From: Ctena decussata | Taxonomy: Eukaryota > Mollusca > Bivalvia > Lucinida > Lucinidae | Reading direction: 5' to 3' | Assembly: GCA_963989385.1 (NCBI GenBank) | Contig: OZ022502.1 | Location: forward strand, 5,610,501-5,674,500 | Length of the DNA stretch: 64,000 nt | Shown here: positions 3,903 through 62,455 of the stretch, piece after piece | How positions within the stretch are numbered: the stretch's first letter is position 1 | Layout of the letters: each line of letters starts with the position of its first letter | The notes under the pieces: generated by a model | Told to the model about the DNA's origin: nothing | Databases searched by the model: none | The model's input: the letters and a program-made list of their open reading frames with translations, nothing else | Program-made: the position numbers and the translations under genes

Positions 3903-3931
3903 AAAAGGACATCTCCACGAGATGTCCTTTT
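3903..3931. other. Perfect 13-bp-stem hairpin at the P1 left end
   Basis: AAAAGGACATCTC and GAGATGTCCTTTT are exact reverse complements separated by CAC. The right end of P1 carries only the AAAAGGACATCTC half. The left terminus therefore looks like two P1 tips fused head to head, or a hairpin intermediate resolved into the flank. Confidence 0.8.
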
Positions 3932-6210
3932 ATGCACTGAAAATGCAGGTTTTTGGACTGTAAAAAGTACTAAATAGCAAGTGCAAAATTGAGCATTGAA
4001 AATAGATATCTAGAAGCCTTGTTTTGGGGTGGCCGAAATCACACTTTACCAGCCCTGGTTTGCTATGGCTCAACTGATATAATCAAATTGTAGGAATATT
4101 CCTACAATTTCATCCATTCATGACCCATCAACATCTTTTGAAATGAACAGCTATTACTACATGTATATTGATCCATCATCATTGTTTTCTAACTGCACAA
4201 AAAATGCAAATAGGACATAATTGCTTTAACTCTATATTACAAATCGTAGGGATATTCCTACGATTTGGAAATTGCTCATTTGTTAAAAAATAAAATACAC
4301 AACTGAGCTCAATTCAAATTCTTCCCACATTTTCCGGATTGTAGGAATATTCCTACATTTTCGAGATTACGACTAAATTTTGTTCATTCATATTTCAACA
4401 TAGACCTTTAAGATTGTAGGAATATTCCTACATTTTTTGGAGATGGTATTTTTTCAATAAATGAAAGATATGACCAAATGCATATTTTCAATAAATGAAA
4501 GATCCAAACAAATTGTAGGAATATTCCTACATTTTTTGGAAATGGTATATTTTCAATAAATGAAAGATATGACCAAATGCATATTTTCAATAAATGAAAG
4601 ATCCAAACAAATCGTAGGAATATTCCTAAATTTTGAAGAATATCTTTTTTCAATGAATAAGGTTAAGTTTAATAATAATTCAACCCACATCTGTCAGATT
4701 GTAGGAATATTCCTACAATTTATTCTTTGTTCCATCATAGTTTGTTTTTTTCAAACTGCAGAAAATGCAATGAGGGAATAATGTTTCTACTTATATACTC
4801 AACAGCAAAAGAAACGCATATTTTGAGTGTCTTGTTTTGTCGCATTAAATGTAATGATATTTTACTTTTTACTTAGTACTGGGATATGCCTACACGTCGC
4901 TAGACGTTCTGCAGCATTATCTTGTCACAGTAAATTTCTTCGAAAAAATATGAAGATTTTTGTCAAAAAGGCCGACATCACAAAATTCTGTCTCACAGTC
5001 GAAAAAAACAACAACAAATTATCAATACGATTTTGCTGCACGTGAGCTCAGCATGATGTAACCAACTGGAAAACGGTATAAAATTTTTAAAATTGATTCT
5101 TATTCAGTTAAATCGCACATGCAAAAATCTGCATTTTTCAAAAGTTTTTGAAAATCGTCTGATTCATCAAAGTTTTAGAAAAATCTGGTGATTTGAGATT
5201 CCAAATGAGTAAGGCTATGGGTAAAGGACCCGTTTTTAAACAAATTTCGGTTTGAAATGATCACGTATTTTTCTCACTTCCGGTTTAAGTTATGAAATTT
5301 AAAAGCCGATAAAAATGTTTTCCTGGGAAAAAATCTTTCTTCCGTTTCACTTACCGTAGACTGTCCTTTCTGATAAAGATGCTATATGATTTTCATTCAA
5401 TTTTGCCCGGTGATTTCAAGGATACAGCGCCCAAAAGTTCAACCTGTTGTTGCATTATTGAAAGGACGTACAGAGTTACTTCCCTTTGTTACATACTCAA
5501 TTTGATTGTGACCACTTACTCTTTTATTTAACCCGAATTGGAATCCATTTCTTATTCGGTTTGCTGAAAAATCGACAAAATTTTCTTTTGCTATCGCAAA
5601 ACTTGCCTACTTTACGGGATTCGCATAAAGGGCCATAACTTTGTTTGTAACGAGTAACCAATGCTGAAAACTCTTGATGATGTTTCCGATACATTGTAGC
5701 GTCCTGGATAAAGAGGGCGTCAGTTTCGGAGCAAGGCACACCTCAGTTCAAGGCACTGAGTTAACTGATCAGTATTTGTGAATTTTGAGATTGACCCCTT
5801 GATTGTTTACGCTTTCGTTACGCATGGATAAACAAATAAAATTTCTATAAGTTTGCGACGAAGTGTACTCCATGCATTGATAATATCTTTCCTGTTTTGC
5901 CAATTTCAGCAGATTTTTATTTTGACATAAAAACACAAAAAGGAAAAAATATGCGTTATTTTTGCTTTTGAGTATATTTTACAAAACGTAAGAATATTCC
6001 TACAATTTGGTAATTGCTCATTTTCCAAGGATAAGAACATACGACCAAATTTGAGTTCAATCCAAATACATTCCACAATATTTAGATTGTAGGAATATTC
6101 CTACATTCTTGAGATTACGGCCAATTCCAACATTTGATCGAAGAGGACATATTTTGAATAAGTGAAAGATCAGGCCAAATCGTAGGAATATTCCTACAAT
6201 TTAATTCATG
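3916..6210. repeat. P1 left arm: GGAATATTCC palindrome array
   Basis: About ten copies of a 16-20-bp palindrome centred on GGAATATTCC occur near 4092, 4246, 4341, 4416, 4516, 4615, 4701, 5990, 6088 and 6180, often flanked by AAATTG/CAATTT or AAATCG/CGATTT. Two neighbouring 100-bp units (4441-4540 and 4541-4640) are near-identical, so part of the arm grew by tandem duplication. The arm is split by a 1.18-kb insertion at 4796-5974. Confidence 0.85.
4796..5974. mobile_element. 1.18-kb non-autonomous TIR transposon
   Basis: Inverted termini TACTCAACAGCAAAAGAAAC (left) and the inverse of TACTCAAAAGCAAAAATAAC (right) continue into CGCATATTTT on both sides. TA (or TATA) flanks both ends, which fits Tc1/mariner-type TA targeting; that class is an inference. 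Removing it restores a phrase (ACTTATATTTTAC) matching an uninterrupted arm unit near 4230 (ACTCTATATTAC), so the P1 arm supplies an empty site. There is no transposase; the ORFs at 4827-5045 and 5524-5739 are not recognisable. Confidence 0.75.
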
Positions 6211-6729
6211 TTCCATCATTGGTCGCAAGGGAGGACATGACAGTACAAAATTACACTACAGGCAACATTAAAGCTACCGCCACGTAAATGGAATGGTACC
6301 GCCCCGGTAATGCCCTTTGAATGACGCGGGAACGCCGTGGAACGCACCGATATTTCAGACCATTCCATTCCAATTATCACCGTTAAATGAAATGGTAACT
6401 TGTAAAAGCGGAGTAATAATTATTGGACGAATTTATTTATTTATTTTTCTGTCGTTAGCAAGTTAAGCAATTTCATATCCTATTCATCTATGTGTCATTA
6501 GTTTCAAGAGTTTGTCTTTTATCTATATTTTATTTTATCTTTTTTCAGCTTTATCGTTTTTCTTCTACTTTTCTTCTGCTTCTTCTTTGAAAACTTAAAT
6601 ATATTTGTTGTTTGATATCTTTTCCATATAATTATTCATCAGGATATTTTATCTATGTCGGTTCAATTTGCGGGATGTGGCTGTTAAATCAGTTTTAGGG
6701 TATTACAGAATCCAGTCGATAATCAGATT
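6211..6729. other. No gene recognised
   Basis: Inside P1. A stretch rich in GGAATGG/CCATTCC near 6280-6400 is partly self-complementary. The rest is T-rich. No exon or ORF support. Confidence 0.4.
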
Positions 6730-7248
6730 TAATCACCTGACCCCTCGCGACAACATGCACCGTGATGACTCTCTGATGAGTTAGGGGACCTCCATACGAA
6801 CCGAACTACCAACTAATTGTGTGCACCGCAGCGGAGGGTGAGAGTGAAGGTTTGGGCCCAGTAAAACCGGTTTAACCCCCCCAGTAGTAATTACTGACCG
6901 TCCCAAGGCGGTACTTTTGTTGCGGTTGCATTTGTTTTATGTTTGGTGCTGTTTAATTTATTGTGTTCTCAGTTTAATCCTTCTATCATAAAAATAGAAA
7001 ATAGGTAAAAATAATTGTTAAATGTTTTTCATATAATTTGCTAAGTCCGTTGTAACCCGTCTGTTGGTCTAAATTATTTGGTTCAATAAAGATAACTGAG
7101 TTGCCATCTATTTGGGAAAGAGCTGCTGACTCGGCTTATCACTTGTAATTTATTGTTTGTTGGGATGTCTTTGTCAATCTTTCCCTTTGATGTTGGGGAT
7201 AGGGTTCGGGATCTGATTCAGTCAGTTCCTGAAGTGTAGTTACTCTTT
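6730..7248 (+). mobile_element. Retroposon copy R1, longest of three
   Basis: From CTGACCGTCCCAAGGCGGTA (about 6893) to CTGAAGTGTAGTTACTCTTTA (7248) it matches copy R3 at 43871-44221. Its last 60 bases match copy R2 at 30914-30974. All three share the same 3' end and differ in 5' length, the pattern of 5'-truncated target-primed retroposition. The extra 5' part (about 6730-6892) may be the rest of the full element. No ORF; family not recognised. Confidence 0.65.
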
Positions 7249-7302
7249 AATTTTTTATTTTTCTATAAAGATCTTATTATGAAATTATTATCATATTATT
7301 AC

Positions 7303-7342
<40 letters not shown>

Positions 7343-7486
7343 ATTGTTATTGTTGTTGGTGGTGGTGTTGTCGCTGATACATCTTTTTCTTGTTTTTCAA
7401 TTCACCAAACGGGCAAAATTATCATCAAAAATAATTATTTTTCTATCTTTATCAAACAGAGACAATGCTCCATTATCATTATTATA

Positions 7487-7525
<39 letters not shown>

Positions 7526-7615
7526 TACATTAGCTTTTTCTTTTGTAAATTTACCAAAATGGGCATCATTATCATAGAAATTAATCAAGTTTTTTTCTGT
7601 CTTTATGACAAGATA
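7303..7615. repeat. ATT microsatellites in a 154-bp duplication
   Basis: ATT runs at 7303-7341 and 7484-7524 each neighbour a copy of a unit (CTTTTTCTTGTTTTTCAATT... and CTTTTTCTTTTGTAAATTT..., starts near 7384 and 7538) that includes CAAAATTATCAT-like and TCTTTAT phrases. This is a short tandem duplication around a trinucleotide repeat. The asparagine-rich ORF on the minus strand is a by-product. Confidence 0.65.
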
Positions 7616-7663
7616 CAATGATTCATGATCCAGAGATCCAGAATAGTCCAGTCAGGCATTGCC

Positions 7664-14752: not shown

Positions 14753-15607
14753 CTGGTGCGATTGATCACGACGCGGAAGCAGTAGTCATAGCTACCAGAA
14801 TATTTATAATGGCGAAGTGATATTTGTCGATTGTTTTCAATGGATTTAAATGGGGTAAGGAAGAAATAATAATAATAATAAACAACAAATAAATGAATAA
14901 ATAAATTAAAATGAAAACGAAAAAGCGATAAGCCTAATATTAACGCAGATCATGTTAACTCCAGATTCAGATTTTCCATTCTATGAAAGAAATATTTTTT
15001 ATATGATGAGAATATAGGCTGAAAACAAAAGTATTCAGTTTTAAACAACTTTAGGACGAGCCTAAGGCGTTGATTCAGGCGAGAAAGTATGCGCGAAATG
15101 TTGAGGCGCCTGAAACAATTAATTTGATTCTTATAAACTCGAAAAAGACAAGCATTGTGTAATAAAACGCCGGGCAGAGCAGATTCAGAGTAGCAGGGCC
15201 AAAAATGTACGGAAGTTGGGACATCTTTTACCTATTAGTATGAGCTGTGTGCTTTAAAATTTTCTATCCGGGCTGCCAATAAAATAAAATTATAAATAAA
15301 ATGAAATACTGAAATGAAAACGATGGGATACTAAGCAAACTGTGCAGACCCCGCTGAAATAAAGTTTTATGGGTTCTTTGTGTAATAGTTTATGGCTGTT
15401 GTAGGTTCTATTTCTCTTTTCCTTAGTATTTCTGTTTTATTTATGTATTTATTTTATTTATTTATTTTTTATGACAAACTTAACTTTCAGGTCGGAAGTG
15501 TCACTCTAGCAAAATCCGATCATATTAAGAATTACAAATTTGGCGTAATCCTACGAACAATGCGAATAATAAAAAAAAAGTTTTTGTAAGCGTTTATTTT
15601 CACATGA

Positions 15608-17524
15608 AAGGACTACGTGCGTGAAGGCCAACTTTTGGCCCCCATCTGAGGCCAAAATATGAAGTCGAGATAAAAGTATTTCGTTGCATGATTTCATTAA
15701 ACCAATACTCCTAGTGTTCCATTTCAGTTTCAGTTTGAATCTTGCTGTGCGTTAAGTATGGAAAAATGGCTGCTGAAACAGGCATAAACCATGGAATTTG
15801 TCGTTTTTGCTCATTTTTAGTCATTCAGTTTAGAAATTGGAACAGAGCACAACCTTTAACCATAAAATCCATTTAACATATGATGTAATTTGCTATAAAG
15901 CACATCGTATTAAAAGATTTTGTTGGTTAATGATTGTGCTCATATTTAATTCTTAAAAAAAACTGAATTCTGCAGACAGCCGTTTACCTATAGTTTGCCT
16001 GTAATAAACATGGTGAAATGTATACCTGGCTGTAATTGTTAATTCAAAGGCATAAGAACTAAGATTTAAATGTGATTTTAAGTAAACCTTCACAAACTGG
16101 ATTACCCTAAAATGTTACCACCTTTCAACAAATTATAGTAAATATCCTAAAAATGTTGCACTGATTGAATTATCCTAAAATTGGACCTTTCACAGTTTAG
16201 CAGCTATCCAAAAGCAGCAGTTTTGTAAAAATAAAAAAAGTCTAGCCTCTGAGCAAACTGTTCCAAATAAAAAGAAGTCTTATCAGGGGTTGTACTTGCT
16301 GCTTAATAGGAATTTTTATCTCAATATTAATTAAAATTACGGTACCTTGCTTAAGTTAGACTTACTTTATCATGGCGCCACTATTCCAGAGATGGTTGTT
16401 CGAAGTTTTAACATTTTGTTGGATATACCTACATGTTTATAAAGTAGGAAGCTATCTATAGATTTTATTCATTAACCTGAATAAACCTAAGATTCTGCAT
16501 ATAAAATCAATAAAATGATTTGTTTTGGTACATACTGACAGATGTCAAGCAGAAATTGACTGATTTTGATGTCAGCTAACAAATACCTTAAAATGTTGAC
16601 ATTTTGGCTCTCAAAACTGCGTGACACATTTCAGCACAGATATCGGCTGAAATGGACGGCAAAACATTTTTATCATCATGTGACACTATTTTTATGATAG
16701 TAATCTAATCTCTAATAAAAATCATAAATAAGTTCCTTCAAGAGCAAGGGCTGAAGGTGGATCAGAGAACAAGTGAGCAGGGGATTTTGTATACCCCGCC
16801 ACTACCTCTGCCTAATCAAAACAATTATTATCAGAAAACTTTAATGCAAATCCAATACAAGTTTTAATGTCTGTGACATTGACCTTAGAGCAGCAAAAAT
16901 GATGTCAACTAATCAATTTCAATTTTGCTCTACATGTTGATCAAGAGACCCTATTCTTGTATACTGACGCTATTAATAGCAATCATTTACAACGACTGCC
17001 TAAGTCCTAATTATTGATTACTGGCCCCACCCAGGGGCCCAACCCCGGGGCTTTTATATCCATTGTCAAAAGAACCCCTACAGAAATATCATGAACCAAA
17101 TGTGAAAAGAAGCTGACATGCAGTATACGAGATAAGAGCAAACAAAAAACGTTTAACGCAAAACTGTGAAGGAAAATGACAGACGAACAGACGGATGAAC
17201 AAATATACTAACAAATGGCCAAACGGACGAAAAGACAAAATTTATATATTCCGCAAATAGTTTGTATGCCAGATGATTAATTTAACTCATTCCAACAGAA
17301 AAGTATAATTACATGCTACAAACATATACATGAAAATGTAATTTTCCTTGTACAGAGAATGGCATAAGGGTCATAACCTTTGACCCCACTTTGTCCCCAT
17401 ATATGATGTCAGTCACCAATGTCCTTACCAGTTTCATTTAGGGGAATAACACAACTATTATTCATACCAATATGAGTCATTTTGGTTGGGGGCCATTTTT
17501 TGGCCTTAATGCACGTAGTCCTTT
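15608..17524. mobile_element. 1.9-kb non-autonomous TIR element
   Basis: The left end AAAGGACTACGTGCGTGAAG and the inverse of the right end (AAAGGACTACGTGCATTAAG) agree and continue into GGCCA...TTGGCCCCCA. The homologous core copy at about 34305-34320 lacks the element and runs directly from CACATGAAA into the distal flank, giving a paralogous empty site. No transposase ORF. GGGGCCCAACCCCGGGGC lies near 17034. The exact target duplication is blurred by A/T bases next to the ends. Confidence 0.75.
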
Positions 17525-17799
17525 ACGACCCATAAATGAAGGTGGTATGATTTTGAAACTGGGCCCAGAAAAGTGTGTCGTATGTCTGTTTATTTGCGCG
17601 GTGTGATCGATATATTTTAAGCTCGCTTGTGTTTATATCACCCGATTGTTTGCATCGTCAAAATATTGTGCATGCAAAATGCGCATGCTATACCAATCTG
17701 CGCAAGCTGTTATAAAATGTGCCTTTTTCATAATGCCCCAAAGACATTCATCTGCTTGTCTTATTTTTCGAGTTTTCATACTTCCAATGACCGTAAATG

Positions 17800-22798: not shown

Positions 22799-22853
22799 TC
22801 ACTTCTGTGTATACAGGGGCAGTTACCAAACGCAAAGGAGTCCGCTAGCTCCC

Positions 22854-24073: not shown

Positions 24074-24074
24074 T

Positions 24075-28300: not shown

Positions 28301-28349
28301 GGCCAAATTTGAGTCACATTTTCCTCTTAAATTTAAACAAACAGAAGAC

Positions 28350-29745: not shown

Positions 29746-29759
29746 GATGCGCATGTACG

Positions 29760-45833: not shown

Positions 45834-45911
45834 TTTTATTCCAGATTGCTTCGGATAGTTCTTTATGTTGTCTTCAATATCATAAGCAGTAGCACCCACC
45901 TTATCCTCGAC
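45834..45911 (-). CDS. Macroglobulin-like gene, exon e (most 3' seen)
   Basis: 26 codons (VEDKVGATAYDIEDNIKNYP...). The acceptor is TTTTCCTAACTAG on the minus strand and the donor is AAA|GTGAGT. It joins in frame after GTSNDIFLYQ, where family members continue from the NDI motif into a helix. Short and less distinctive than the others, but splice sites and frame agree. Confidence 0.65.
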
Positions 45912-48900
45912 CTAGTTAGGAAAAGATTAGCTTTACAAATGTTTTCAGGCAATAAAATTTATTTCAAGCATCTCAGAATAAAGCTTATTCCTGAAAGAAA
46001 TAAACTTTTTGTTCCGAGTACCTAAAACAGTTTTCTTTATTTATCGGATAAAAACCGAACTAGAAAACTGTGTCTGTGAGACACGAATTATTCTCCCGAT
46101 CAGCGCCTGTCAAATGGCAGTACACATCACTTAACCGTCTATAAATTATCAATGTACACCACTTGATACTGATCTTCTGTCGGTAAATCTCTCCAAATGC
46201 TTCATGTAGAACAGAATTTATGTAATCTGTAGAAACATTAAATGCACTTTGCCCATACATTTGTAAAACGGCTTAGATTAAGTAAGACAAAACTGTATAA
46301 AAGCATTGCAAACGGCTGCGTGATACCCCGCTAGTGCAAACCTTTTTCACCTCCCAATTTTTTTCCTGATTTATTTATCTCTGTATTACAGCAGGGCAGG
46401 GGTACCCATATCCCATTTGACATGGAACAAAATTATGTTATCACTGGATTCACTATTCCCATGGGATCGATTTCAAGCAACACTGATGGTTTTACAACTC
46501 TACTCACTTGCTGTAAGCTTGTGCATAACTACTTGAACTTCGGTTTAATACTCTTGTTTTCATGATTTTACACCTGTGTTGGGGCAATAGCAGATAACTC
46601 ATTGGATTAATTTTGTGTATTACAGAAGGATTTTGTCACTCTGATCATCTTCTGTTAATTTCAGAAAAACTGCTTTGAACTATATATGATTTTCGACACG
46701 TATATAGCCCAAGGGTAGGGGCAGATAACCACATAGGACAGACTTTCTGTGCTTATGCCAAGTATTTGTTACGTTTTGTGAAGTTTCATATGGCAGTTCA
46801 AATAATAAGGGAACTATAGGCTATAGACCCACTTCTCTAAATTGAAAAGGGCCATAATTCTGTCAGAAATTATTGAAATTGGCCAACTGACAATCTTAGT
46901 ACAAATGCATATGCAAAATCTGAATTAAATCAGAGGATAAGTACTTAAGTTGTCGAACGGAAACGAAGGGTGGACGGACGGACGGATGTACTACGGACGG
47001 ACAGACGGCTGAAGGATACACAGACGGCCATCGTAAAAACAAAATAACCCGCCACTAAAGTGTGGCGGGATATATAAGCCGAATTATCTTAGAAATCAGC
47101 TGCTACGGAGGACTAACTTTCTAAAGCCACAATTTAATAAAACTTATCCTAGTCAAAACATTCCATGGATCTTATATTATTAGAGCCTCGGAATTATAGA
47201 AAATGCTGATACGACAAAGCTCTGTTGTGACTACAGAGCTTTTTATAATCAGTATTTTCTATAATGTATGAGGCTCTGTAACTAGTATGAAATAGTTATC
47301 CAAAATAACTCAGTGGATAAGGCTGTAATTTCATCAAAATGAAATATATCAAATGCTAAACTACTATGCTTATGCGAATCCTTAGAATAATATATTGATC
47401 TATTAATCGATGCAGATGCATATGCTAAGATAAATATATTGTAATCTGTGAAAAGAGTTGATTACACGTACTCTGTAATTTAAACTGCCAAAAGATGCCC
47501 AAATTGTCTCGGTTGGCCACAATTCTTTCATAATGTATTTCATTCCCATCGTAGACCCATAAGCATATCGTCATTTTTTCACAACTAATAAAACAACAAA
47601 TGTAAAAGAAAGAACTTCCATTTGAAATTTTGGTAGAAGTTGATTAAACAACTTTTATACCCTGAAGTGTAAAAAGCTGCCCAAAATGTATTTTTAACTT
47701 AAAAGGCTGTTATTCTGCCAAGATCAATCATACATCCATCAAAAAATCATATGCACATCTTCATTAGGTTTAGAATATGTGTACAAATTTTAAAAACAAT
47801 TCATTGAAAGTTTTGGTGGAAGTTAATCACTCAAACTCTATATTTTAAAAACAAAAGAGTGACCCAAAATTACTAAGTTTGAATGGCTAAAATTCTGGCA
47901 AAATAATTCTGTTTTCATCAAAATTCCACACGCAGGTTTTCATTTTTTACAGTATGTGCATAAATTTGGAAACAAAATAATATTGAAAACAGTTAGAGAA
48001 GTTGATTGCGCCAACCAAAAGTGTGACTAAAGGACAGAGACAAAGGCAAATCTGAATCCCTCTGACAATCGCACGTGGGCATTAAATTAAAAAATCGAAT
48101 AAACTGACCCCACGTCGGAAAAACTCTCTCTGTGGACTCAGAAGTAAATGTGTACCAAATTCGAAGAAGGAAAGATTGAAAACGCACAGGATGTGGTGCC
48201 TCGTTTCATATGTAATGCTCGAGGTAAGATTGGCCTCTCACAACCTACTGCACCTACGCCCACAGATGGAGTGGACATGTTTACCATAAATTGTAAGAAG
48301 TATCGAATCAAAATGCTACTTACCAATAACAACCAACAATTGCCTATATCTAAAATTTTCAGAGTACATTGTGTGATGAAGCCAGTGGGCAGAGCTTAAG
48401 TTCCATGAAGCGCGAAGCGCTTCTTGTTGGTAGAATTTTAGCGACGACCACTGGCTTCTGCACACGATGAAAGCTGAAAGCTCTTACATTTACACTTTAT
48501 TTTTAGACATTTGTAGTGCTGTTTTCGTGGTAATTTAATTAAGAATATGCAAAATATGCGTCGCAGAAAAGATAGAAACGCCGTCTTCTGCCATTACCTT
48601 AAACAGCCGTCATCATAACGTGCCGACGATCGAACGTTACGTAGACCAATCAATACCTTAGACGTCGCTTAATGACAATGTTACATGATCAATAGTCGTT
48701 CATAGGTGTATGAAGCCAGTTGCTCTAAACGGTTTACGTATGGGAAGTCAGTGGAAAAATTATTGGAAGGAGTTCTCAACAATTATTTCCCTATTAGTAA
48801 AAATGCAGTTTTTTATTATGACACAATTTTTGGTCTCGATTATCATTAAATATAGCAAGGTTTAATGTGTACCATGTCCTCGTTGTTGCCTGCAATGTGA

Positions 48901-51900
48901 TCATGACTTTTCTCCAACAAATTGGAAACGTCCAATACATAGTCGGGCTTTTTGTTACATTCTTTCAACTAATCATTGGTTATTCCTTCAGATACAGATA
49001 GGGTGATGTTATATAACCTGATGTCTACAGCTGCACTGTCTCACGGACTATTTCAATAAATGTTGCTCGGATAGGGATGTTCAAAACCTTCCTTTCGGTT
49101 TATATCAAGATTTGAGATTAAGCTGTACAGAAATGCGCATGTGTGGCACTACATGTTGTTTATGTGGCGCATCTAGTAACTACGCCCGACGTACTATTTT
49201 ATTCTAACTGACACACACTTAAGGTCTGCTAAATCTGGTTACTAAGCTTGTACTTATTCAAATTGGTTGAAAATTAAAAATGATAACTAGATAAGCTCAT
49301 ACCAAAAAGAATAGTTGCAAAGCAAAATTAAGTACGTTGAAGAAGCTGGAATGTAACTATGGGGAATCTGAAACCACTTTTACAAAGGGTGAAAGAGAAA
49401 CATATTATAGGCACTCCAAGTATTTATCCGCGGGGCTGGAGATAGGGCTAATTTCCCTTATATGCTATTTTAAAGGTAATAGGATTCCAAAATATGAAGA
49501 ACATTATTTGTGACAGTGCCTGCGATTTTGAGCCTTGCGGAGGTGCGACGTTGACGTCACGAAACGTGATATGAAAGTGACGTCATAACATGTGCACATA
49601 AATTTAATTGTATTTCCGCGCACTGACTAACAAATTTCAAAGCGTCACCTGAAAAAAGTGAATCACCATTTCCATAGGCGTACTTAATTTAATGTTCGCA
49701 TTATAGATCTTTGAAAAGATATGTCATGAATCAGAGTTATAAAGGTTTATCCAGCTAATATGTACATTTGTATCCAATCAGTGAAACGAAAACAAAAAAA
49801 AAATCGGTTGGGTGTGAATTTCGTTTGTTTTTGCAGTAAACCTTAGCGCTATTTTCTTTGCTTCTCAAAATCTACTCTGAAAGCACTAATAAATATGAAA
49901 ACGTTAGAAACAAAATTTCCGATTTTCGCTCCATAAGGCTCAAAATGCCAGACACTGTCAGAAATTTTTATGACAAAACATTTCCATTTTCTGTATATTT
50001 GTATGTAACACTTGAGAGATATTCAACTTCTAAAACGCAAATACACGTTATCAGTTGACATTTAACCAAATTATAAACCATAAAAATGGCATGGTTACCT
50101 GATACAAGAAAATATCATTGCTAGTTCCCAGTAGTCTGTTTCTTTCATCTTCCGTTAGAATATAAACTGTGGAGCCAGGATTGGCTTGAATGATCAGATT
50201 CACAGCCTCTCCAACTTCTACTGTTTCTTTGTCGAACTGCACTGACACCTAAACAGTAATTGATAATTTGTAGATTAGCTATCCCTGTTTTTTAATGTAT
50301 TATCTCGTTTAGACTTAAGAAATACATCAGCTCTAGCAGTGAATTATTGAGTAATAATTCACTGTTTGGAGGTCAGTTTTAAAGTATATTATATCACAAG
50401 CGCGGAGCACGAGTAATATATTTACTTACAACTGACCGAGAAACAGTGAATGTTTACTCAACTATCCAATGCTAGTGCTGAACTATTTCTATTGTAACGC
50501 CCGAAAACGCTGCAAAACTATTCTTTTCATTCAAATGCTAACTCACCCAACCTTCACGTCAGCGTTTTTAAGCTCCCGCCAATATTCTTAAACTGTATCT
50601 AAGGTAAATATACGTTTTTATGGCGATTATAGAAAGAAAAACAGACGTTACACCGTCTCGTGTCTGAAAACGTCGCCAAATAACGTCAGTAATGCAAGTG
50701 ACGTCAGCAATTGGACTCACGCGCTCCAAGACAGTGGATTGTTGCAGAATAAAACTCGGAAACTTTCCATTGCTTCTATTGGCGCACTATGTTAGAATTT
50801 CTGACATAGGAAAACACTTTGTAGGCAGTATTCGGACTGTTTTTCTTTTTGCATCAGCATTATTTTGGCATACACTTTTGGGCAATCGCAAATGTGCTTT
50901 TGTGACACCAACAAGGTAGTGGAAAATCTGGCTAGATGCCTCCTTCGTCCTTCTTTGTTTACAAAATCAAGCCATATCCCCGAAAAAGAGAAAATAATAA
51001 ACAAACCTTAACAAACAAACAAGGAAAGTAGTCTTTTTATTGAAACAGATTATTACACCTGTTTTTGAAAAATATTCTTGGGTACCTAGATATCGCCGAT
51101 ATGCATATCAAAATTACTTTTATGGATATAAAATACAAATGAAGACAAAAAACTTTAAGTTCCGCTGCTTCCTGGTGAACATGTGCCATATAAGCAGTGT
51201 TTGGAAATCTGTATTCCTGTCAATGCTGAACTTCAGTTTTTGTTAAAGATACATTCTTGATTGCACGTTTAGTGAATCATGTCGCTCAGAGGCAAGGCAT
51301 CCAGGAATAATCCTATGCATTTCAACAGACTTGAAGCATGATAACTTCCCATCCATCTAAGTAGAAGCTGCTTACTTGTAGCTGTTAACTGGGGAAATGC
51401 TTCAATCTAGGACGACATGTGACTAACAAGAGAATCTATGGAACCGATAGACGCTTCCCGAAGGTGTTGATTAGTGAATTAGGTATCCTGGTGAAGGAAT
51501 TATTTTAGGTGTAAACTCAATGCAATTAAAAATGAAAAAAAAATATAAAACGGAGGTAACGGAATGAGAAGATGCAAAAATATTCATTAACATAGTTTAC
51601 TCATTTTTTGGCAAATTCGGGTAAATAAACACAGAAAAATTATGATTAGCCATCACAGTGTTTGTGAAATGCTAACCCATGCAATCTACATAAAGTCTGA
51701 TAATTATAAACACAAAAGCTTCTTGTGTTAGGGTGACGGTTATTGAACCCTGCATTATCTGTCTTTGCCAGCTATTAGCTTTTTTAATTTTCACCGGGAC
51801 CACCTTAAATAGTTTAAGAGATATATTTTAAACAAGCACAACAAGAAGATGATAAATAACTCGAAACATTCTAGGATACCATTATGGCTTTTGCACTCTG

Positions 51901-54900
51901 GCTGAATTTAAAATAGCAAACTCGTTTTACCTGCTGTATTCAGGAGAGATACTAAAAATCAAACATCTTCAATGCATTTTGTGACTTCTAAAACAGGATG
52001 CTATTATATAGGTAAATGTCGGCGATGCCCAGAATATGTGTTTAAAAATGCATGTATACTGTATCATCGTACAAGGTGGCGTAACCTACCATAAATGCAT
52101 ACAACGACAACTGTTTTGGTCTTGAAAAATCGGAAAAGGTACGGAAATATGTTTCAATTACATTTAGAAGTTAGAAATCTTCAATAATGTTGTACGTACA
52201 GTGTTTCGAATATGCAATCCCTCAACTTCAATGGGCAAATTGTCTGATGAAATTGTTCCGTCATCCCCCATAAAGTATGCAAGTATATATGTTTTTGGAA
52301 CCATAGAGCTGTTAATGCTTAACTGAAAGTCAATCGAGGTTTGGTCATTCATCCGTTCTTCTTTGGATACCAAACGTCTGCCTCTGCAATACACCTATGA
52401 AGCAGGAGAAGAAAAGATTGAATTCAAACTTATATCTTAAAATGGAGACCGATTCGGACTAATATTACACCGGTCTAACAGTCATGACAGGCAACAAAGA
52501 CAATGTACAAGAAATAAAGAGAAATTTGACTTTTTTCTCATTCAAGGTGAGTTTGTTTCACATGTATAGTCTCAATGACCATCAGGCTCTTGCAATACGT
52601 ATTAACTGTTCTACTGTATAATTATGCATGTTGTTCATGAAATGTTTATACACAACTTTCGGGCTACGAGGATCATGGCAACGGATGGGCAAAAAATGCA
52701 CCGTTTTCATGACAGACCGACTTCATTCAAAGACTTGGTCTGAAATAGAGATCTAACAGACTGTCAGCTCTGTTAGAGTAATAGTTAGAAATTAAGTAGC
52801 TTGCGAAAATGATCAAGTTGAGACATAGTTAAATAGTCAGAAAATTTTGCTAACATACACGTTGGTTTCGGTGCATGGTGACATTTGATCAAAGATCAGT
52901 TCTGTCAGCTCCGTTAGAGTAATAGATATAAATTAAGTGGCATGCGAAAAAGATCAGGTTGAGACATAATTAAATAGTCAGAAAATTTCCCTAACATATA
53001 CGTTCGTTTCGGTGCATGGTGATATTTGATCAAAGATTAGTTTTGTTTTATGTTAATGCACATAACATTACACAATTACAAATAAACCTAACACGCCGAC
53101 AGTCAGGGCAGGAAAATGTGGAATATGTTAAGTCTATTGACAAAAGCCATCTATTTTATATTCAACATTTTTGCAACAAATTTTGATCCAACTGAATTAA
53201 GAATCGGACGTCTGGTGTCCCGTACTGCGGCAATTGATATACGGGAGAAACATAATTATGAGACTGATTGGAAACAAACGCAAACACATTAAACCCCATG
53301 CACAGCATCGTTGTTTGAACATCATCGAATAATTATTTGTAACGGCAAGCGATTGGTAATTTTGACCACCTAGATTGACAAGTTTTTATGTCTATTAATT
53401 TGTTTCTCTTTATCTTCTTTTAATTTTTCCATGGTGTTTATATTAAACGGCAATGTGTGTGTGTGTGTGCGTGTGTGCGTGTGTGTGTATGTGTGCGGGG
53501 GGAGGGCAGACGCGCTCAAAAGGTCATTGTCCTGGGAGTTCTCCCGCTCAATGCTATTCTCCGAAGGAAAGAGAGAACAGGGAAGCATTAATTACTTACA
53601 GCATTTTTATAACTGGCGAGGCTTCAGTATACCGAATTTACTGCCAAAGGCAAACAAAACCCATGTTCACTTAGAAAAACACATCAGACTTTCACAGGTT
53701 GGACCCCGAAATAGCACAATTCAAACGTGTAGAAGAATGTTGCAGTGTAGCACATCCCTAAAAAGTTTGCAGGTGCCTTTCCGCGCTTTGCGTGGGTCCT
53801 TTTCTAGTTTTATTTATTAGGTTTTAACTGCTTTACTGTCGTTCCCCATACCGGATGTTGGTACCTAATACGTGCTGCTATTTCCAGCTTTCTAAGGCCA
53901 CAGTCTCACTGTCACGTATTTAGGGCTAGATTTTACTACGTTTTTAAACGTGTCAAAACGGCAGTATACGTTGTAATAGGTAATGAAAACGTACATAGCT
54001 AAATACGTGGCCTTATTATGCTTGATTTAGAATTTTTAACTCAAACATAGCATTTTGATATCCGTAACGTATACGTAGTAAAACGTACCAGCACGTAGTA
54101 AAACGTGGCCAAAACGTAGTTGAAACGCATTATATACGTACAAAAACGTAACAAGAATAACCTAGAGGTCCTCTAAGTCTCAGTCTCACTATCACGTTTT
54201 GACGACTAGTTTTTTCTACGTATTTAAAACGTTCCAAAACGGGAATATGCGTATTAAAACGTAGTGAATATACGTATTATACACGGCTATTAACAGCTAC
54301 ATACGTGGCCTAGCTACGTTTGATGTGAAAAATCAGCTTATACGTAGCATTTCGAAATACTTACTGTATGCGTAGTAGAAGCGTATTGAAGCGTAGTCTA
54401 AACGTACTAGAACGTAGGTGAAACGTTTTAAGTACGTAGCATTATATACGCTTTACCACGTCTTAGTGCGTTTTGTGACGTTCAATTCTGTGTTTTATTA
54501 CGATTTTGTATGTTTGCGATACCTACTGAAACGTCACTTACACTAGGTAGTTATCCCGGTCACTACCTAGAACGTACGGAATCGTAGTAGGTAAGTAAAC
54601 TGTTCTTATCCCTTCTGAAAGCATGGTACTAAGCCGTTTGGTGACCGGGTAATACGAAGTAAATCGTAGTTAAACATATTGGAAACATATTGGAAACGTA
54701 CCATAAATGAAGTGAAACCTACATAGCTACAAAACGGGGTACAACCTAGCTTTCAAAACGTGACAGTGAGACTGGTCCCTTAGGGCCCAATCTCACTATC
54801 ACGTTTTGAGGGCTAGGTAGACTACGTTTACCGCCCTACGTTTGGCAAAAACTTTACCCCGTTTCGTAAGTATTAAGGTGTTACTACGTTTCTAGTACGT

Positions 54901-57034
54901 TTTAAATACGTTTAACTACGATTTACTTCGTATTATCCGGTTATCTTTCGGCTTAGTGCCACGCTTTCAGAACGGACGAGAACACTTTACTTACTAAGAT
55001 TCAGTACGTTTTACTAGGGACTACTGGGTAGTGTCCGGTATAATTACCTAGTTGAAGTGACGTTTGAGTAGGTATCGCAAAACATACCAAAACGTAATAA
55101 AACGCAGGATAAAACCACACAAAACGTACTAAGCGTATATAATGCATAGTACTAAGTAGAGGACCTTCACGTATGCCTTTGTATTAAAACATTTCATCTA
55201 CGTTCTACTACGTTTATACTACATTTTAATATGTTTTTACTCAAATACAATAAGTATTATGAAATGCTACGTTTAAGTTGAATTTTCAGTTCAAGCGTAG
55301 ACAGGCCACGTATGTAGCAGTATATACCCGTATATAATACGTATTCATTATGTTTCAATACGCTTATTCCAGTTTTGGTACGTTTTGAATACGTAGAAAA
55401 TCCTAGTCCTCAATACGTGACAGCGAGTTTGAGGCTTAGACCACCTCTAGGTTATTCTTGTTATGTTGCGTTTTGGGTACGTTTTTGTACGATTCGACCA
55501 CGTTTTACTAGGAATATACTACGTATATCAAAATGCCATGTTTGAGTTAAAAATTCTGAATCAATCGTAACAAAGCCGAGTATTTAGTTATACCTGTATG
55601 CGTTTTCACAACGTTTTACAACGTTTAATGCCGTTTTGCCACGTTCGAAAACGTAGTAAAACCTAGCCCTCAACATGTGACAGTGAGACTGTGGCATAAG
55701 CTATGCTCCCGCATAAACTGCTTAACCTATATAACATAAACACTCTGACTACCATCAAATCTAACAGTATAATGACAGCACCAAACCCAAAACGAGTGGA
55801 AATAGCGCGTAACAGAACTAAATGAATGGCAACACATGCAAAAGGCAAATTGCATATTTTTTGTTATAATTATTCGGATAGGTTAACACCGAGCTCCACT
55901 AAGCATATCCAAATAATTGTCATAAACTAGCCGAAAAAAGAACAGATCCAAGTGATGGTCAGTTGTGAATCTGATCGAGCATATGGGTGTTGGGTGACGG
56001 GAGCAACGAGAGAGATTGAAACTAATTTTGACGCGCCAACCGTTGCTCTTGGCTCTTGTGTTCTATTGGGGGAAGCTTGGGGACCAAAATGCTTTTGAAA
56101 ATCTGAATACTTTCCGTAAGAGTCGTTGTGCACTTATATCTGTCACGTGAGGTTTCCAGTTTCCTATTTGGCTTTCAATAGTGTTTCAGGTTTGCGGTTA
56201 TAACGAAAACGAAAATTGAAGAGGTTCCTAGATAACGATCTCCGAATTATAGAAACCTGATCCCAAGAACAACTCGATCGTATAAAAATGATACATCAGT
56301 CAATAGAGACAAATATATGCAACGCAGATAAATATTACCTCAAACATAACGGATCCTTTTAAGAGCTCAGTCGCTTTAAGCTGGATAGTAACCGTTTCAC
56401 CGATCTGAAAATAGTGTTACTATTTTTTCATGATTATATACCACAAAATAGTCTATTAAGTATTTCACGGATTACTAGATACACACACTCATTACTATGA
56501 AATCGTCAACACCATTCCTTACCCAGGTAAACGGCGTAGGCTATTAGACTAAGGCAGAAAAGTTAATCAGTGAGCCAGATATTATGTGGCTATTAGTGTT
56601 TGCGTTATGGTTTCCATAAAAAGATCAGGATAAGTAGGTAGGAATGTATTTTTCTGTCAAGCGTAATATGCTTACTCGACCACAAGAGATTTATTAAATT
56701 CATTAAGCATTTAAATTCTTGCATCTGATGGGTTTCCCGAGGAATCCGGCTACCGCCCAAGTAAGCGGTCGGCCAAATTTTAATTAAACATTGTAGACAG
56801 AGCTGTGGAACCCATATACATAAAAATGTATAAAAATTCAAACTGTTATATCAACAAGTGCAACAATGACAAAGATAAACTAAATATAACCTGTAGATCG
56901 TTTATCCTGTGAAGTTATTTACTTACCTCCGGAGGGGATTGCATCGACAGTCTAATTACGTTGTTCATATCTGACGGAAGGATTCGTTTTAGGTCGTAAT
57001 CTAGACTAGAACCTGAAGGACCAGATATCTGAAC
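45834..57034 (-). CDS. Partial alpha-2-macroglobulin/TEP-family gene, five exons
   Basis: A minus-strand gene read from five GT-AG exons: 57034-56927, 56404-56339, 52394-52200, 50248-50099 and 45911-45834. All have lengths divisible by three and all junctions are phase 0. The joined 199 residues run without a break. They follow the pattern of consecutive macroglobulin domains: NNVIRLSMQSPPEIGETVTI, then VMFE-VYCRGR, then SMVPKTYILAYFMGDDG and LPIEVEG (MG5-like), then VEVGEAVNLIIQANPGSTV and ILTEDERNRLLGTSNDI (start of an MG6-like domain). Family members (alpha-2-macroglobulin, TEP, CD109, C3) are extracellular, trap proteases or tag targets through a thioester, and act in innate immunity. The thioester motif, bait region, signal peptide and C-terminal domains are not in the window. 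Downstream sequence is P2, so the gene either has a very large intron or is broken. Exact paralogue unknown. Confidence 0.8.
47182..47277. mobile_element. 96-bp hairpin MITE
   Basis: AGAGCCTC and GAGGCTCT at the ends, ATTATAGAAAATGCTGAT and ATCAGTATTTTCTATAAT inside, and a terminal stem-loop AAAGCTCTGT/ACAGAGCTTT (47216-47242). Almost the entire length folds back. Confidence 0.75.
47458..48030. repeat. About 180-bp tandem repeat, 3 units
   Basis: Starts near 47458, 47640, 47824 and 48002 share TTGATTA..., a short gap, then AAAAG-TGCCCAAAAT and TCTGCCAA-like phrases. Period 178-184 bp. Intronic, diverged. Confidence 0.6.
48371..48465. mobile_element. 95-bp MITE with inverted ends
   Basis: GTGTGATGAAGCCAGTGG and the inverse of CCACTGGCTTCTGCACAC bound the element. 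GAAGCGCTTC lies within it. A partial copy of the end (GTGTATGAAGCCAGTTG) is near 48706. Confidence 0.65.
50099..50248 (-). CDS. Macroglobulin-like gene, exon d
   Basis: 50 codons, opening with VSVQFDKETVEVGEAVNLII and containing ANPGSTVYILTEDERNRLLG and SNDIF. The proline-glycine-serine and ED/D elements match the start of the sixth macroglobulin domain. Acceptor ACTGTTTAG; donor CAG|GTAACC. One of the two most diagnostic exons. Confidence 0.85.
50328..50481. mobile_element. 154-bp hairpin MITE
   Basis: Ends AGCTCTAGCAGTGAATTATT and the inverse of the right end (AGCACTAGCATTGGATAGTT) pair imperfectly. The left arm contains its own perfect hairpin CAGTGAATTATT/AATAATTCACTG (50337-50364). It lies 80 bp from the exon d acceptor. 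Confidence 0.65.
50482..52199. other. Intron between exons c and d
   Basis: 1.9-kb intron including the MITE above. AAACGTCGCC and GTGACGTCAGC occur near 50660-50710. No further exon recognised. Confidence 0.55.
52200..52394 (-). CDS. Macroglobulin-like gene, exon c
   Basis: 65 codons: VYCRGRRLVSKEERMNDQTS, then IDFQLSINSSMVPKTYILAY, FMGDDGTISSDNLPIEVEGL, ending HIRNT. The order RG, F-x-L, S-M-V/A-P, Y-x-L-A-Y-x-x and D-x-L-x-I-x-V matches the fifth macroglobulin domain. Acceptor CTGCTTCATAG; donor ACT|GTACGT. The most diagnostic exon. Confidence 0.9.
52761..53045. repeat. 142-bp intronic tandem duplication
   Basis: CTGTCAGCTCTGTTAGAGTA (52761) and CTGTCAGCTCCGTTAGAGTA (52903) start two near-identical units ending in GGTGCATGGTGACATTTGAT / GGTGCATGGTGATATTTGAT. 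Recent local duplication. Confidence 0.85.
53454..53496. repeat. GT microsatellite
   Basis: (GT)n with GC interruptions. The cysteine-valine ORFs across it are artefacts. Confidence 0.9.
53897..55695. mobile_element. P4: nested ACGT-rich foldback element
   Basis: GCCACAGTCTCACTGTCAC (53897-53915) and its exact inverse (55677-55695) bound 1.8 kb that is self-complementary around about 54783. Two further foldbacks lie back to back inside, 54177-54780 and 54786-55440, each starting TCTCACTATCACGTTTTGA and ending AC(G)GTGACAG(T/C)GAG. The hairpin turn of the outer element is visible as AAGAATAACCTAGAGGT / ACCTCTAGGTTATTCTT. Throughout, ACGT and AAACGTAGTAAAACGT motifs recur. Target duplication uncertain (AGCTTTCT against AGCTATGCT). 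Located in the intron between exons b and c. Confidence 0.8.
55700..56338. other. Intron, no exon recognised
   Basis: Sequence between P4 and exon b. The minus-strand ORF at 55927-56133 (APVTQHPYARSDSQLTITW) resembles antisense of an interspersed repeat and is not recognised as an exon. Confidence 0.4.
56339..56404 (-). CDS. Macroglobulin-like gene, exon b
   Basis: 22 codons: IGETVTIQLKATELLKGSVM followed by FE. The vGetvtI pattern starts the fifth macroglobulin domain. Acceptor CACTATTTTCAG; donor GAG|GTAATA. Continues directly into exon c. Confidence 0.85.
56927..57034 (-). CDS. Macroglobulin-like gene, exon a
   Basis: 36 codons: VQISGPSGSSLDYDLKRILP, SDMNNVIRLSMQSPPE. The I-x-L-S-x-x-S-P ending is the usual lead into the next macroglobulin domain. 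Strong acceptor TTTCTTTTTTTGCAG; donor GAG|GTAAGT. Confidence 0.85.
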
Positions 57035-57525
57035 CTGCAAAAAAAGAAAGTGAATATGTTTAAAATAAGATTCCATCTCCGCAGGTGGTATATTCAGTCT
57101 AATACCTATGCAGCATCGGGAAAGACCAGAACAAAAATATAAATGAAGTTATCCGGCAAAGACCATACTCAGAGAACACAGTTTTCCAAAGACACCGAAA
57201 GAAGAAGAAGGTAGAAATGCAAACGATAAACCAAATTATACTTTCGATAATTGACACACAAAATAGAAATCAGGCTAAATGTACATACATACCACACAAA
57301 AGCCCTCTGACAGTTTTAATGTAAAGTTGCCTATAATATGGTCGAAAATGAACTTCGATATAGTTCAAAATTTTCACTGAAATTTATTGTTCTTAACTCC
57401 TTATAACTGGCACAAAAACATTTTATTTTCGATTATATAGCACACAGACTTAGATTTTTGGTGCAAAAAGCAGGATTTTATAATTAAATGTATGGAAAAC
57501 AGGAAAAGTTTTATTAATACGCCCC

Positions 57526-57604
57526 CGTGCCTCAGCAAGCAACTTTGCATCCATATGTGTACTGTCAATATACACATTCTGTATGCGTGGCAAGCTGAGG
57601 CACG
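57526..57604. other. 79-nt imperfect hairpin
   Basis: CGTGCCTCAGC (57526-57536) pairs perfectly with GCTGAGGCACG (57594-57604). The interior pairs partly, with ATGTGTA/TATACAC near the loop. Size and shape are like a miRNA precursor or a tiny MITE. No expression evidence. Confidence 0.5.
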
Positions 57605-58605
57605 ATCCACGGGGAAAAGATAGTCTACAGCTGAAGAACTGAAAAATGGGTGGGATAATTAGACCCAATTTATATAAAAATTAGGCGAACATACTTTTTA
57701 TCTACAGATAATTGCATACTATGTGCAACTGTAGTGTTTTTCAATTTTTTAAGCATATTTAACAAAATAAATTCAGTAAATATGTATAGCCAAAAATAGA
57801 TGTATTTTGGATGACCGAAAGTTCCACTTACACCTTTTGCGAAAGTCAGTGAGAGTTAGAGTGCAGATGTAATAAGTGCTCAAAATCAATATCAAAACCT
57901 CTTTATAATGCATATAACTACCTGTTTATGCTAAGGTCTTAACCATTAGCTTCCCAAGACAGCTGTAGTAATTTGTCGAAAAATAGGCAAATTTGCATGG
58001 AAATTGTCAGAGGTCCTTAGAAGTTATACAAAATTTAAAAATACAAATGAAGAAAGCGAGGAAAGATCACACTCATAAATCATAACCCACCCAATACATT
58101 AAAAAACAAGGAGATGAACGCAAATACAAATTAATTATTTTATACTTAGCAGTAAATTCAATGCACATCTAGATTAAATAAAAGTGATATTGTCTAAAGT
58201 GAAAAGATATATTATCAATTCAGTAGTTATTGATACGATTTAGATATTTTTCTTTGTCAAAAAGGCAAACTGCGGCTGGTTTAGAAAAAATGAACTTAAT
58301 TTCTTTCCGGATAGGTCTCAGCTGTAGCGTTCTTGTCTGATATTATGCTACGGATGTTAACACGGCTAATCAAGCAACATCTTGACCTCACTGTTTGAAC
58401 TGGGGTATTGCTTATAAGCACGTGGCGTCAATCCCACTGCAGCTGCAAGGGGCTTTCGTAAATCGCAGATTTCTTTTTAATAATTCATTAAAATAACACC
58501 ATAAACCATTTAAACTCAAAACCATACTTACTTAATGCACTGAGACAAGCAAAAATAAACGAGAAATGACTAGGAAAAAGTCTTTTTTTTGAAGCGGTCT
58601 GTTTT
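57605..58605. other. No gene recognised
   Basis: AT-rich, presumably intron or upstream sequence of the macroglobulin-like gene. Nothing recognised. Confidence 0.4.
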
Positions 58606-58659
58606 CTACGAAAGCCTATAAGGACATTTTCAAAACAAGAAAAAAATAATGTTCTCGAA

Positions 58660-59412
58660 ATAACGAGAAACCAACTCGCAATAACGAGAAGCCAACGCCT
58701 TATAACGAGAAGCCAACTTGCTATTACGAAAAGTCAACTCGTAATAACGAGAAACCAACTCGTTATAACGAGAAGCCAACTCGTAATAACGAGCAACCAA
58801 TTCGTTATAACGAGAAGCTAGCTCGTTATAACCAGGAACCAACTCGTAATTACGAAAAGCCAAGTCGTTATATCGAGAAACCAACTCGTTATTACGAAAA
58901 ACTAACTCATTATAACGAGAAACAAACTCGTAATAACGAGAAATCCACTCGTTATAACGAAAAGCCAACTTGTAATAACGAGAAATCAACCCAAAACAAC
59001 GAGAAATTAATCGTAGTAACGATTAAACATCTCGTTATAACGAGAAACCAACTCGTAAAAATGAGCAACCAACGCATAATAACGAGAAACCAACTCGTTA
59101 TAACGAGAAGGCAACCCGTAATAACAAGAAGCCAACTCATAATATCGAGAAACCAACTCGTAATAACGAGAAGCCAACTCGTAATAGCGAGAAGCCAACT
59201 CGTAATCATGAGAAACTAATTCGTTATAACGAGAAACTTACGCGTAATAACGAGAAACCAACTCGTTATAACGTGAAACCAACTCGTTATAACGTGAAAC
59301 CAACTCGTTATAGCGAGTAACCAACACGTAATAATGAGAAACCAAATCGTAATAACTAGAAACCAACTCGTTGTAACATGAAGCCAACTCGTAATAACGA
59401 GAAACCAACAAT
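58660..59412. repeat. P3 left arm: 21-bp palindrome units
   Basis: About 36 units of CTCGTTATAACGAGAAACCAA, alternating perfect (TTATAA) and near-perfect (TAATAA) dyads. Unit length is 21 bp with few indels, so minus-strand frames stay open as seven-residue repeats (SRYNELV). Not a gene. Confidence 0.9.
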
Positions 59413-59653
59413 TCAGTATAAAGGGGAATAATCTAAACCAGTTGTCAAAAGTAATGTCTGTATATCTTCAGTAATGTTTATATTAGCACGACGACAGGCT
59501 GCACGATATCTGAGGTCTAACATGGCTGGGTTCTAAGAGTTTGCAAATATTTATGAGATTATGTGCAAGACTATGTCCGATTTCTTATCCGCAAATCTGT
59601 CTGATAATATGAAATGGTTATATCTGATGTTAAAGGTGTCTGAAAGTTATTTG

Positions 59654-60345: not shown

Positions 60346-60377
60346 ATTGTATGTGACTTGGATATGTTCATGTAATT

Positions 60378-61638: not shown

Positions 61639-61640
<2 letters not shown>
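60456..61640. other. No gene recognised
   Basis: P3 interior. GAAAATTTAC/GTAAATTTTC with TCTGGTCACA between forms a hairpin near 61215-61250. ORF 60537-60788 has no recognisable domain. Confidence 0.35.

Positions 61641-61643
<3 letters not shown>

Positions 61644-61682
<39 letters not shown>
61644..61682. repeat. CT microsatellite
   Basis: Pure (CT)n preceded by CTGTCTGTCTGTC. Confidence 0.95.
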
Positions 61683-61684
<2 letters not shown>

Positions 61685-61886
61685 ACGTTCACCACTTTTA
61701 CAAGCAGGCTAGTGAAGGAAGTTTTTCGTCAACCCTATATCTGTGGTCAAGATTTTTTATCTAAAACTGGAGAAGAGGAAGAAGGAAAAGAAGAAGAAAA
61801 CGATAATGATAATGAAGAAATGAATAACAGTTCTAAGCTTCTAAACCAATTTGGGTCACGTGACAACAGGTGTCGATAATTCTTAC

Positions 61887-61934
61887 CTGCATTTCAGCAA
61901 GGATAACGCATTGTATTTTCAAGATCCCATGTAG
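61887..61934 (-). CDS. Possible further 5' exon of the macroglobulin-like gene
   Basis: 16 codons (LHGILKIQCVILAEMQ) with a good donor CAG|GTAAGA and a weak acceptor (TTTTAAAAG). Length is divisible by three and phase 0, like the other exons. The K-I-x-x-x-V-I-A-E pattern would suit a macroglobulin strand just before exon a. Against it: it lies inside P3, between its arms, and the polypyrimidine tract is poor. May be chance. Confidence 0.25.
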
Positions 61935-62084
61935 CTTTTAAAATCATAATAATACCGTCCCTCAAACATACCCACACAACACCTAACACCCCAGTTGGGT
62001 ATAGAAACACAAACTTTTGGTTCAGCCGGAAGGTATTTTATGCTGTTATGAGTTCGTGCCCTTGATATTGTATCGTTGGCTACT

Positions 62085-62410
62085 CGATGGTTTCTCGTAA
62101 TAATGAGTAGGTTTCTCGTTATAACGAGATAGCTTCTCGTTAAAACGTGTTGGCTTCGCGTTACTACGCGTTGGTTTCTCGTTATTTTGAATTGGTTTCT
62201 CGTCATTACCAGTTGGCTTCTCGTTATAACGAGTTGGGCTTCTCGTAGGAACGAGTTGAGTTCTCGTTATAACGAGTTGGTTTCTCGTTATTACAAGATG
62301 GGTATTCTTTATAACGAGTTTGTTTCTCGTTATAACGAGTTGGTTTCTCGTTATTACGATTTGGCTTCTCGTTATTACGAATTGGTTTCTCGTGATTTCG
62401 AGAAATTTAT
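62085..62410. repeat. P3 right arm: 21-bp palindrome units
   Basis: About 15 units of TTGGTTTCTCGTTATAACGAG, inverse of the left arm and less than half its length. Confidence 0.9.
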
Positions 62411-62455
62411 ATTTTTTCTTGTTTTGAAAATGTCCTTAGAGGCTTTCGTAGTTTT

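Follow-up and report, generated by a model that had tools for sequence, protein, structure and literature searches.

A cluster of foldback-type elements with arms of short symmetric repeats in the genome of the bivalve Ctena decussata

We analyzed a 64-kb stretch of DNA from the lucinid bivalve Ctena decussata (NCBI GenBank assembly GCA_963989385.1, contig OZ022502.1, positions 5,610,501 to 5,674,500 of the forward strand), referred to below as the window, with coordinates counted from its first nucleotide. The window is rich in transposable elements and contains four inverted-repeat elements, P1, P2, P3, and P4 (Table 1), which are a genuine cluster of elements of the foldback type: P1, P2, and P3 have long terminal inverted repeats (TIRs) with internal repeats, and P4 joins them through its inverted arms. 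A preliminary description of this DNA attributed one plan to P1, P2, and P3, with inverted arms made of arrays of a perfect palindrome around an interior without a transposase, and recognized no described superfamily with this signature. The arrays do lie in paired inverted arms and no transposase domain was found between them, but "perfect", which describes most sites of P1 and P2, does not hold for most units of P3, and the plan matches that of foldback elements already known; it is the sequences of P1 to P4, including their arrays, that look new. What is unusual is that more than one element uses symmetric words whose spacers have decayed.

The window contains 95 perfect palindromes of at least 12 bp, whereas 20 first-order Markov simulations gave a mean of 21.4 and a maximum of 31. 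The six arms of P1 to P3 hold 73 of the 95, and the other 22 are at about the background level. For the exact palindromes of P1 to P3 the first-order expectation is below 0.08. With up to three mismatches to the consensus allowed, all 23 sites of GTAGGAATATTCCTAC in the window fall within the arms of P1 and all 65 sites of GTGGTACATGTACCAC within those of P2, divided between left and right as in Table 1, and CTCGTTATAACGAG has 49 sites, with 46 in the P3 arms, two in the P3 interior, and one outside at 57397. The P3 arms are built of a 21-bp CTCGTWATAACGAG unit, a period of about two helical turns. A half-site common to the P1 and P2 palindromes was considered by eye and dropped. The arms of P4 (53897–54818 and 55695–54744) align at 75% over 986 columns, and P4 holds 58 of the 192 ACGT sites in the window within 2.8% of its length (binomial p = 2.6e-42). 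Among the 57 successive ACGT spacings, 16 are 10–11 bp, six are 20–21 bp, and six are 30–32 bp, which may point to helical phasing, although 24 bp also occurs four times; the site spacings of P1 and P2 show no helical phase by eye. P4 had been presented as a smaller variant on the theme. It is a 1.8-kb inverted repeat, its word is only ACGT, and it has no clear flanking duplication; its membership in the set would follow from shape alone.

The terminal repeats align at 88% over 253 columns in P1 (3916–4164 with 22798–22546), 89% over 37 columns in P2 (30541–30577 with 45459–45423), and 92% over 52 columns in P3 (58606–58656 with 62451–62400), and the outermost bases are unlike among the elements (AAGTGACACGAG, CTGAGGGAAATA, TACGAAAGCC, GCCACAGTCTC). 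At the core boundaries of P1 there is no exact flanking match of 3 bp or more. However, the right core end is adjoined by TCACTT, the complement AAGTGA is found 23 bp outside the left core, and CTGT lies beyond both. P1 therefore begins 29 bp before position 3916 and ends 6 bp past the core match, and its duplication, previously taken as imperfect, is an exact CTGT. This arrangement was equaled by 12 of 100,000 random boundary pairs, a figure for a boundary picked after inspection that is too favorable, perhaps tenfold, because the CTGT reading was spotted by eye and then tested. Within the 23 bp inserted at the left end (3893–3915), 13 bp repeat the neighboring terminus in inverted orientation, or 14 bp when compared with the right terminus, as if a broken end had been copied after folding back; short inverted templated insertions of a similar kind have been reported at breaks (PMC11724301). 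Visual inspection of the P1 left arm suggests, at ~4797–5980, a nested element of 1.2 kb whose ends are inverted (ACTCAACAGCAAAAGAAACGCAT...).

In P2, arm segments 31331–32485 and 42853–41711 are 87% alike. The right arm exceeds the left in length because of a 77-bp tandem expansion (40720–42118) and a doubling of its outer part (42602–43637 and 43655–45031), the latter subsequently split by a 357-bp repeat at 43870–44226. Unmatched gaps of 309 bp on the left and 651 bp on the right separate the terminal repeat from the arms, so that the 27–37 bp termini are tied to the arms less directly than those of P1 and P3 are. The 357-bp repeat has another copy at 6893–7250, 94% alike; by eye, the copy at 43870–44226 contains a short open reading frame (ORF), MAELPPIWERAADSAYQL, and the left end of P2 has a third fragment near 30914–30970.

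A six-frame Pfam search of the interiors of P1 (6216–21200 except the 15 bases 16201–16215), P2, and P3 detected no transposase domain at E ≤ 0.5, and none was detected in 22800–30540 or 45460–53890. These whole-frame scans covered the window outside 1–6215, 53891–59419 (which includes P4), 62081–64000, and, in the right arms of P1 and P2, 21200–22800 and 40594–45460. Sub-threshold matches were to DUF3915 (P3 interior, E 2e-4, 21.7 bits against a cut-off of 26.9; P1 interior, E 0.33) and DUF5702 (E 0.22). A reverse transcriptase of a long interspersed nuclear element (LINE) is present as RVT_1 in ORFs within 19686–21037, with at least 120 relatives, among them two from the tubeworm Ridgeia piscesae. 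Two tRNA-like matches (Rfam RF00005; 14482–14554 and 33831–33903) are probably heads of short interspersed nuclear elements (SINEs). The interiors of P1 (13086–18524) and P2 (35746–32861, inverted) have a block in common, with four collinear pieces that are 76–81% alike and carry different nested insertions. The block was rejected as evidence of kinship between P1 and P2, as by eye it resembles an independent repeat that entered each of them; it starts at AGGGGAAGAAACTCT and, in P1, stops where a small hairpin lies. Also by eye, the P1 copy contains at ~15606–17530 an insertion of 1.9 kb whose inverted ends are GGACTACGTGC...GCACGTAGTCC.

Sequences related to P3 recur elsewhere. With ORFs across the arrays as protein queries (E 0.01), the 21-bp array of P3 was matched in 12 public proteins (562 candidates) and the P2 array in one (12 candidates). 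Four of the 12 P3-array proteins carry a translation of the P3 TIR upstream of the array: P0122 and P0133 (scores of 49 and 46, against maxima of 38 and 33 among 2,400 shuffled-protein scores per frame) and, less surely, P0125 and P0129 (both 38, against 33), which share one flank, may be a single locus, and score as they do partly through a lysine run. The P3 end and array thus recur jointly at other loci, though some arrays show another flank. The array patterns, one each for P1, P2, and P3, were unmatched in viral contigs, those of P2 and P3 were unmatched in bacterial and archaeal genomes, and six palindrome strings were absent from the literature searched, a scope without Repbase and most subscription journals. 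It could be proposed that the arrays are satellite-like, spread by recombination or by rolling-circle elements, and that the inverted pairs arose by rearrangement. The arms do grow by tandem duplication, oyster Helentrons carry tandem repeats according to part of one report (PMC7492417), and three of the array proteins have another flank in common, but the outer edges bear terminal repeats, flanking repeats are present, and the P3 end stands beside arrays at other loci, which makes this origin unlikely.

The flanking repeats of P1 and P3 exceed chance. Among 20,000 random boundary pairs, an exact match of at least 4 bp occurred in 0.5% at a fixed boundary and in 5.8% within 4 bp of it, and 344 of 100,000 pairs (0.34%) matched exactly over 6 bp within 4 bp of the boundary. 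In P3, TTTT flanks the outermost matching base, and GTTTTC is obtained one base further inward, where the G before and the C after TTTT match as well. In P0122, the isoleucine before TKAYKDIFK implies a T where P3 has C, which fits a 6-bp duplication and an element that starts with TACG. Reading 6 bp rather than 4 bp is based on the two bases beside TTTT and on a single translated copy, in which a mutation is possible. The TATA beside P2 is itself a palindrome and is therefore ambiguous between a duplication and part of the terminal repeat, and the flanks of P4 match over no more than TAA. The 4-bp duplications in the preliminary description can thus be read as CTGT, TATA, and TTTT, but are unequivocal neither in P2 nor in P3, and P4 offers none. 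No duplication of 8–10 bp with up to two mismatches, as in Mutator-like elements (MULEs), flanks P1, P2, or P4 at the core boundaries. P3 has one 8-bp match with two mismatches, expected in ~7% of random pairs, and a duplication of 8–10 bp at the corrected boundary of P1 was rejected with 5–8 mismatches. An exact 7- or 8-bp duplication, as in the P superfamily, was found in none of the four elements.

The duplications had been taken as a hint of one mobilizing enzyme class, which these flanks do not establish. P1 to P3 could belong to an undescribed superfamily with related enzymes and 4-bp duplications, in which the palindromes differ because the DNA-binding domain diverged. The common plan and the possible 4-bp readings agree with this proposal, but P3 is better explained by 6 bp, TATA in P2 is palindromic and of a length that 5.8% of random pairs match within 4 bp of a boundary, P4 lacks a 4-bp match, the terminal bases differ, and there is no transposase for comparison, so that we consider it improbable. 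Nor does a shared plan with unrelated repeats have to mean one new class, since the foldback structure may have arisen independently. The more specific proposal of an undescribed cut-and-paste group with short (4-bp) duplications and a family-specific array of palindromic operators, whose word would change along with the DNA-binding domain of the transposase, is quite doubtful. Superfamilies with 4-bp duplications include Sola, Chapaev, and Ginger1; P1 to P3 showed no coding capacity for a transposase of such a group.

The palindromes of P1 and P2 are preserved beyond their surroundings. We collected half-sites by one half with at most one mismatch on both strands, each palindrome being counted twice; because the sites were picked by one half only, there was no selection for symmetry. 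Identity of the mirror half was 0.763 in P1 (65 half-sites) and 0.877 in P2 (134 half-sites), and that of neighboring 8-bp windows (three downstream and one upstream, each with its own consensus) was 0.40–0.60. Among half-sites outside the elements, none of 31 and none of 19 had a mirror half matching at 7 of 8 positions or better. Between the main P2 arms, palindrome columns are 0.954 identical and spacers 0.867 (p = 1.4e-4), and in one P1 stretch the values are 0.896 and 0.806 (p = 0.038), these being the two of six comparisons below 0.05 before any correction. The symmetry of the P1 and P2 palindromes is thus retained as their spacers decay. Retention for folding, as hairpins or cruciforms, is very unlikely: perfect palindromes reach 26 bp and the arms could pair mutually, but no compensatory change at mirrored positions was detected at p < 0.05 in three palindromes (33, 72, and 60 sites), which, in a test of little power, weakens the case for hairpin conservation. 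With the mirror half kept, the flanks decayed, and the changes non-compensatory, protein sites are therefore preferred over hairpins. This pattern favors a fixed two-fold-symmetric sequence in P1 and P2 that would be recognized by a dimer, most simply a transposase, and by analogy the words of P3 and P4 may be recognized in the same way.

We therefore interpret P1 to P4, with a probability of about 0.6, as separate, old, non-autonomous foldback cut-and-paste transposons whose arms would be arrays of symmetric transposase-binding sites. Because no transposase domain was found in P1 to P3, we infer that they moved in trans, by means of an enzyme that would be encoded elsewhere. The arm palindromes would most likely bind a dimeric DNA-binding domain of the transposase or of a partner protein. 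Tandem duplication would multiply the sites, many molecules could then load on both ends, and the ends might in this way be brought together, with the interiors later gaining LINE, SINE, and other insertions.

Several observations weigh against this interpretation. A transposase, a binding protein, and a second full-length copy were all unseen in the sequence examined. Half-sites whose mirror half matches at four of eight positions or fewer number 20 of 65 in P1 and 12 of 134 in P2. In four of the six arm comparisons, conservation of the palindrome does not significantly exceed that of the spacer (p = 0.075 for the outermost P2 comparison, p = 0.61 for the P2 duplication at 0.938 against 0.952, p = 1 for the P1 termini, and p = 0.061 for the P1 mid arms), and the same holds for the young arrays, where whole units are alike (P2 77-bp array, 0.925 against 0.894, p = 0.12; P3 21-bp array, 0.878 against 0.882, p = 0.90). 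Most P3 units are imperfect palindromes, with perfect 14-mers in only 3 of the 34 units on the left and 4 of the 15 on the right, and in P0123, P0124, and P0127 the array is bordered by another flank, common to the three. Finally, the power of the covariation test is low because there are few changes.

Table 1 Coordinates of P1 to P4 and their parts in the window.
Element	Feature	Coordinates	Strand	Sequence or remark
P1	Left flanking duplication	3883–3886		CTGT; right copy 22805–22808; exact 4-bp match beyond 6-bp hidden TIR extension
P1	Left TIR	3887–4164	+	AAGTGA, 23-bp insertion 3893–3915, then CACGAGATGTCC...
P1	Left arm	4085–6215	+	10 sites of GTAGGAATATTCCTAC; broken by nested insertion at ~4797–5980
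P1	Right arm	21200–22630	-	13 sites of GTAGGAATATTCCTAC
P1	Right TIR	22546–22804	-	CTGT next
P1	Terminal repeat sequence			AAGTGACACGAGATGTCC
P2	Left TIR	30551–30577	+	CTGAGGGAAATAAATTTAGCAAGTTTT; TATA at 30547–30550
P2	Left arm	30887–32490	+	17 sites of GTGGTACATGTACCAC, two overlapping
P2	Right arm	39590–44670	-	48 sites of GTGGTACATGTACCAC
P2	Right TIR	45423–45449	-	TATA at 45450–45453
P2	Terminal repeat sequence			CTGARRGAAATAAATTTAGC
P3	Left flanking duplication	58601–58606		GTTTTC; right copy 62451–62456; alternative TTTT at 58602–58605
P3	Left TIR	58607–58653	+	TACGAAAGCCTATAAGGACATTTTCAAAACAAG...
P3	Left arm	58654–59409	+	36 copies of 21-bp unit CTCGTWATAACGAGAARCCAA
P3	Right arm	62088–62399	-	Inverted 21-bp array, ~14.5 copies
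P3	Right TIR	62400–62450	-	
P3	Terminal repeat sequence			TACGAAAGCCTMTAAGGACATTTTC
P4	Whole element	53897–55695		Near-complete 1.8-kb inverted repeat, 75%
P4	Terminal repeat sequence			GCCACAGTCTCACTGTCACG

Two further features of the window were recorded. A tandem array with a 145-bp unit is present in 7.3 copies at 583–1629. On the minus strand at ~52221–52430, a weak match to the alpha-2-macroglobulin bait region (E 0.00035, 21.4 bits against a cut-off of 22.7) could possibly be an exon.

The TIRs of foldback elements are long and internally repetitive, a structure that may have evolved independently, and most such elements seem to be relatives of Mutator, according to the relevant passages of two reports (PMC4079207, PMC3169594). 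Tetris of Drosophila virilis is described there as a non-autonomous foldback element with ~220-bp tandem repeats in long TIRs, a variable middle, and an autonomous partner that was not found; it differs from the present elements in its 8–10 bp duplications, and the passages on its repeats do not call them palindromes (PMC4079207). Among the MULEs of Aedes aegypti, 10 of 12 long-TIR families have subterminal tandem repeats of 9–15 bp, with units of 12 and 15 bp in Muta1 and Muta5, and many mosquito families have subterminal repeats that differ in unit length; Muta1 and its relatives are unlike P1 to P4 in having 8–9 bp duplications, a transposase, and short arrays, as far as they are described (PMC5225508). 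No MULE transposase was detected in the interiors of P1 to P3, as would be the case for non-autonomous members with a possible partner elsewhere. Tm1 of Meloidogyne resembles them in its composite TIRs with a ~14-bp repeated motif and differs in its 9-bp duplications, and the same source cites mariner Mcmar elements (Mcmar1), whose TIRs consist of direct repeats together with palindromes (PMC3169594). Helentrons and HINEs are outlined as two modules with subterminal inverted repeats, one 3′ palindrome, and tandem repeats between the modules (PMC7492417); this identity was rejected for P1 to P3, whose inverted repeats are terminal and whose two arms each carry an array.

Galileo, a member of the P superfamily in Drosophila, is also similar. 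It has long inverted arms with internal repeats, its THAP domain binds sites in the repeats of its long TIRs, and extra sites for the THAP transposase lie inside two repeats (PMC3688188). Its arms are lengthened by tandem repeats and nested transposable elements (PMC4168063) and, being of a similar type to those described here, are known to drive inversions (PMC2775673), in the portions of these reports that bear on the arms. In contrast, Galileo generates duplications of 7 or 8 bp in D. willistoni and has a known transposase, and the passages on its arms mention no array of perfect palindromes. The Pfam search of the P1 to P3 interiors detected no THAP-type P transposase domain; a partner elsewhere is possible. 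For Foldback and Phantom elements, binding to the arm repeats is stated to be untested in the Galileo study, to the extent that it treats them (PMC3688188). The different symmetric words in one window, with mirror halves kept as spacers decay, would make the explanation of such arms as arrays of binding sites testable across families.

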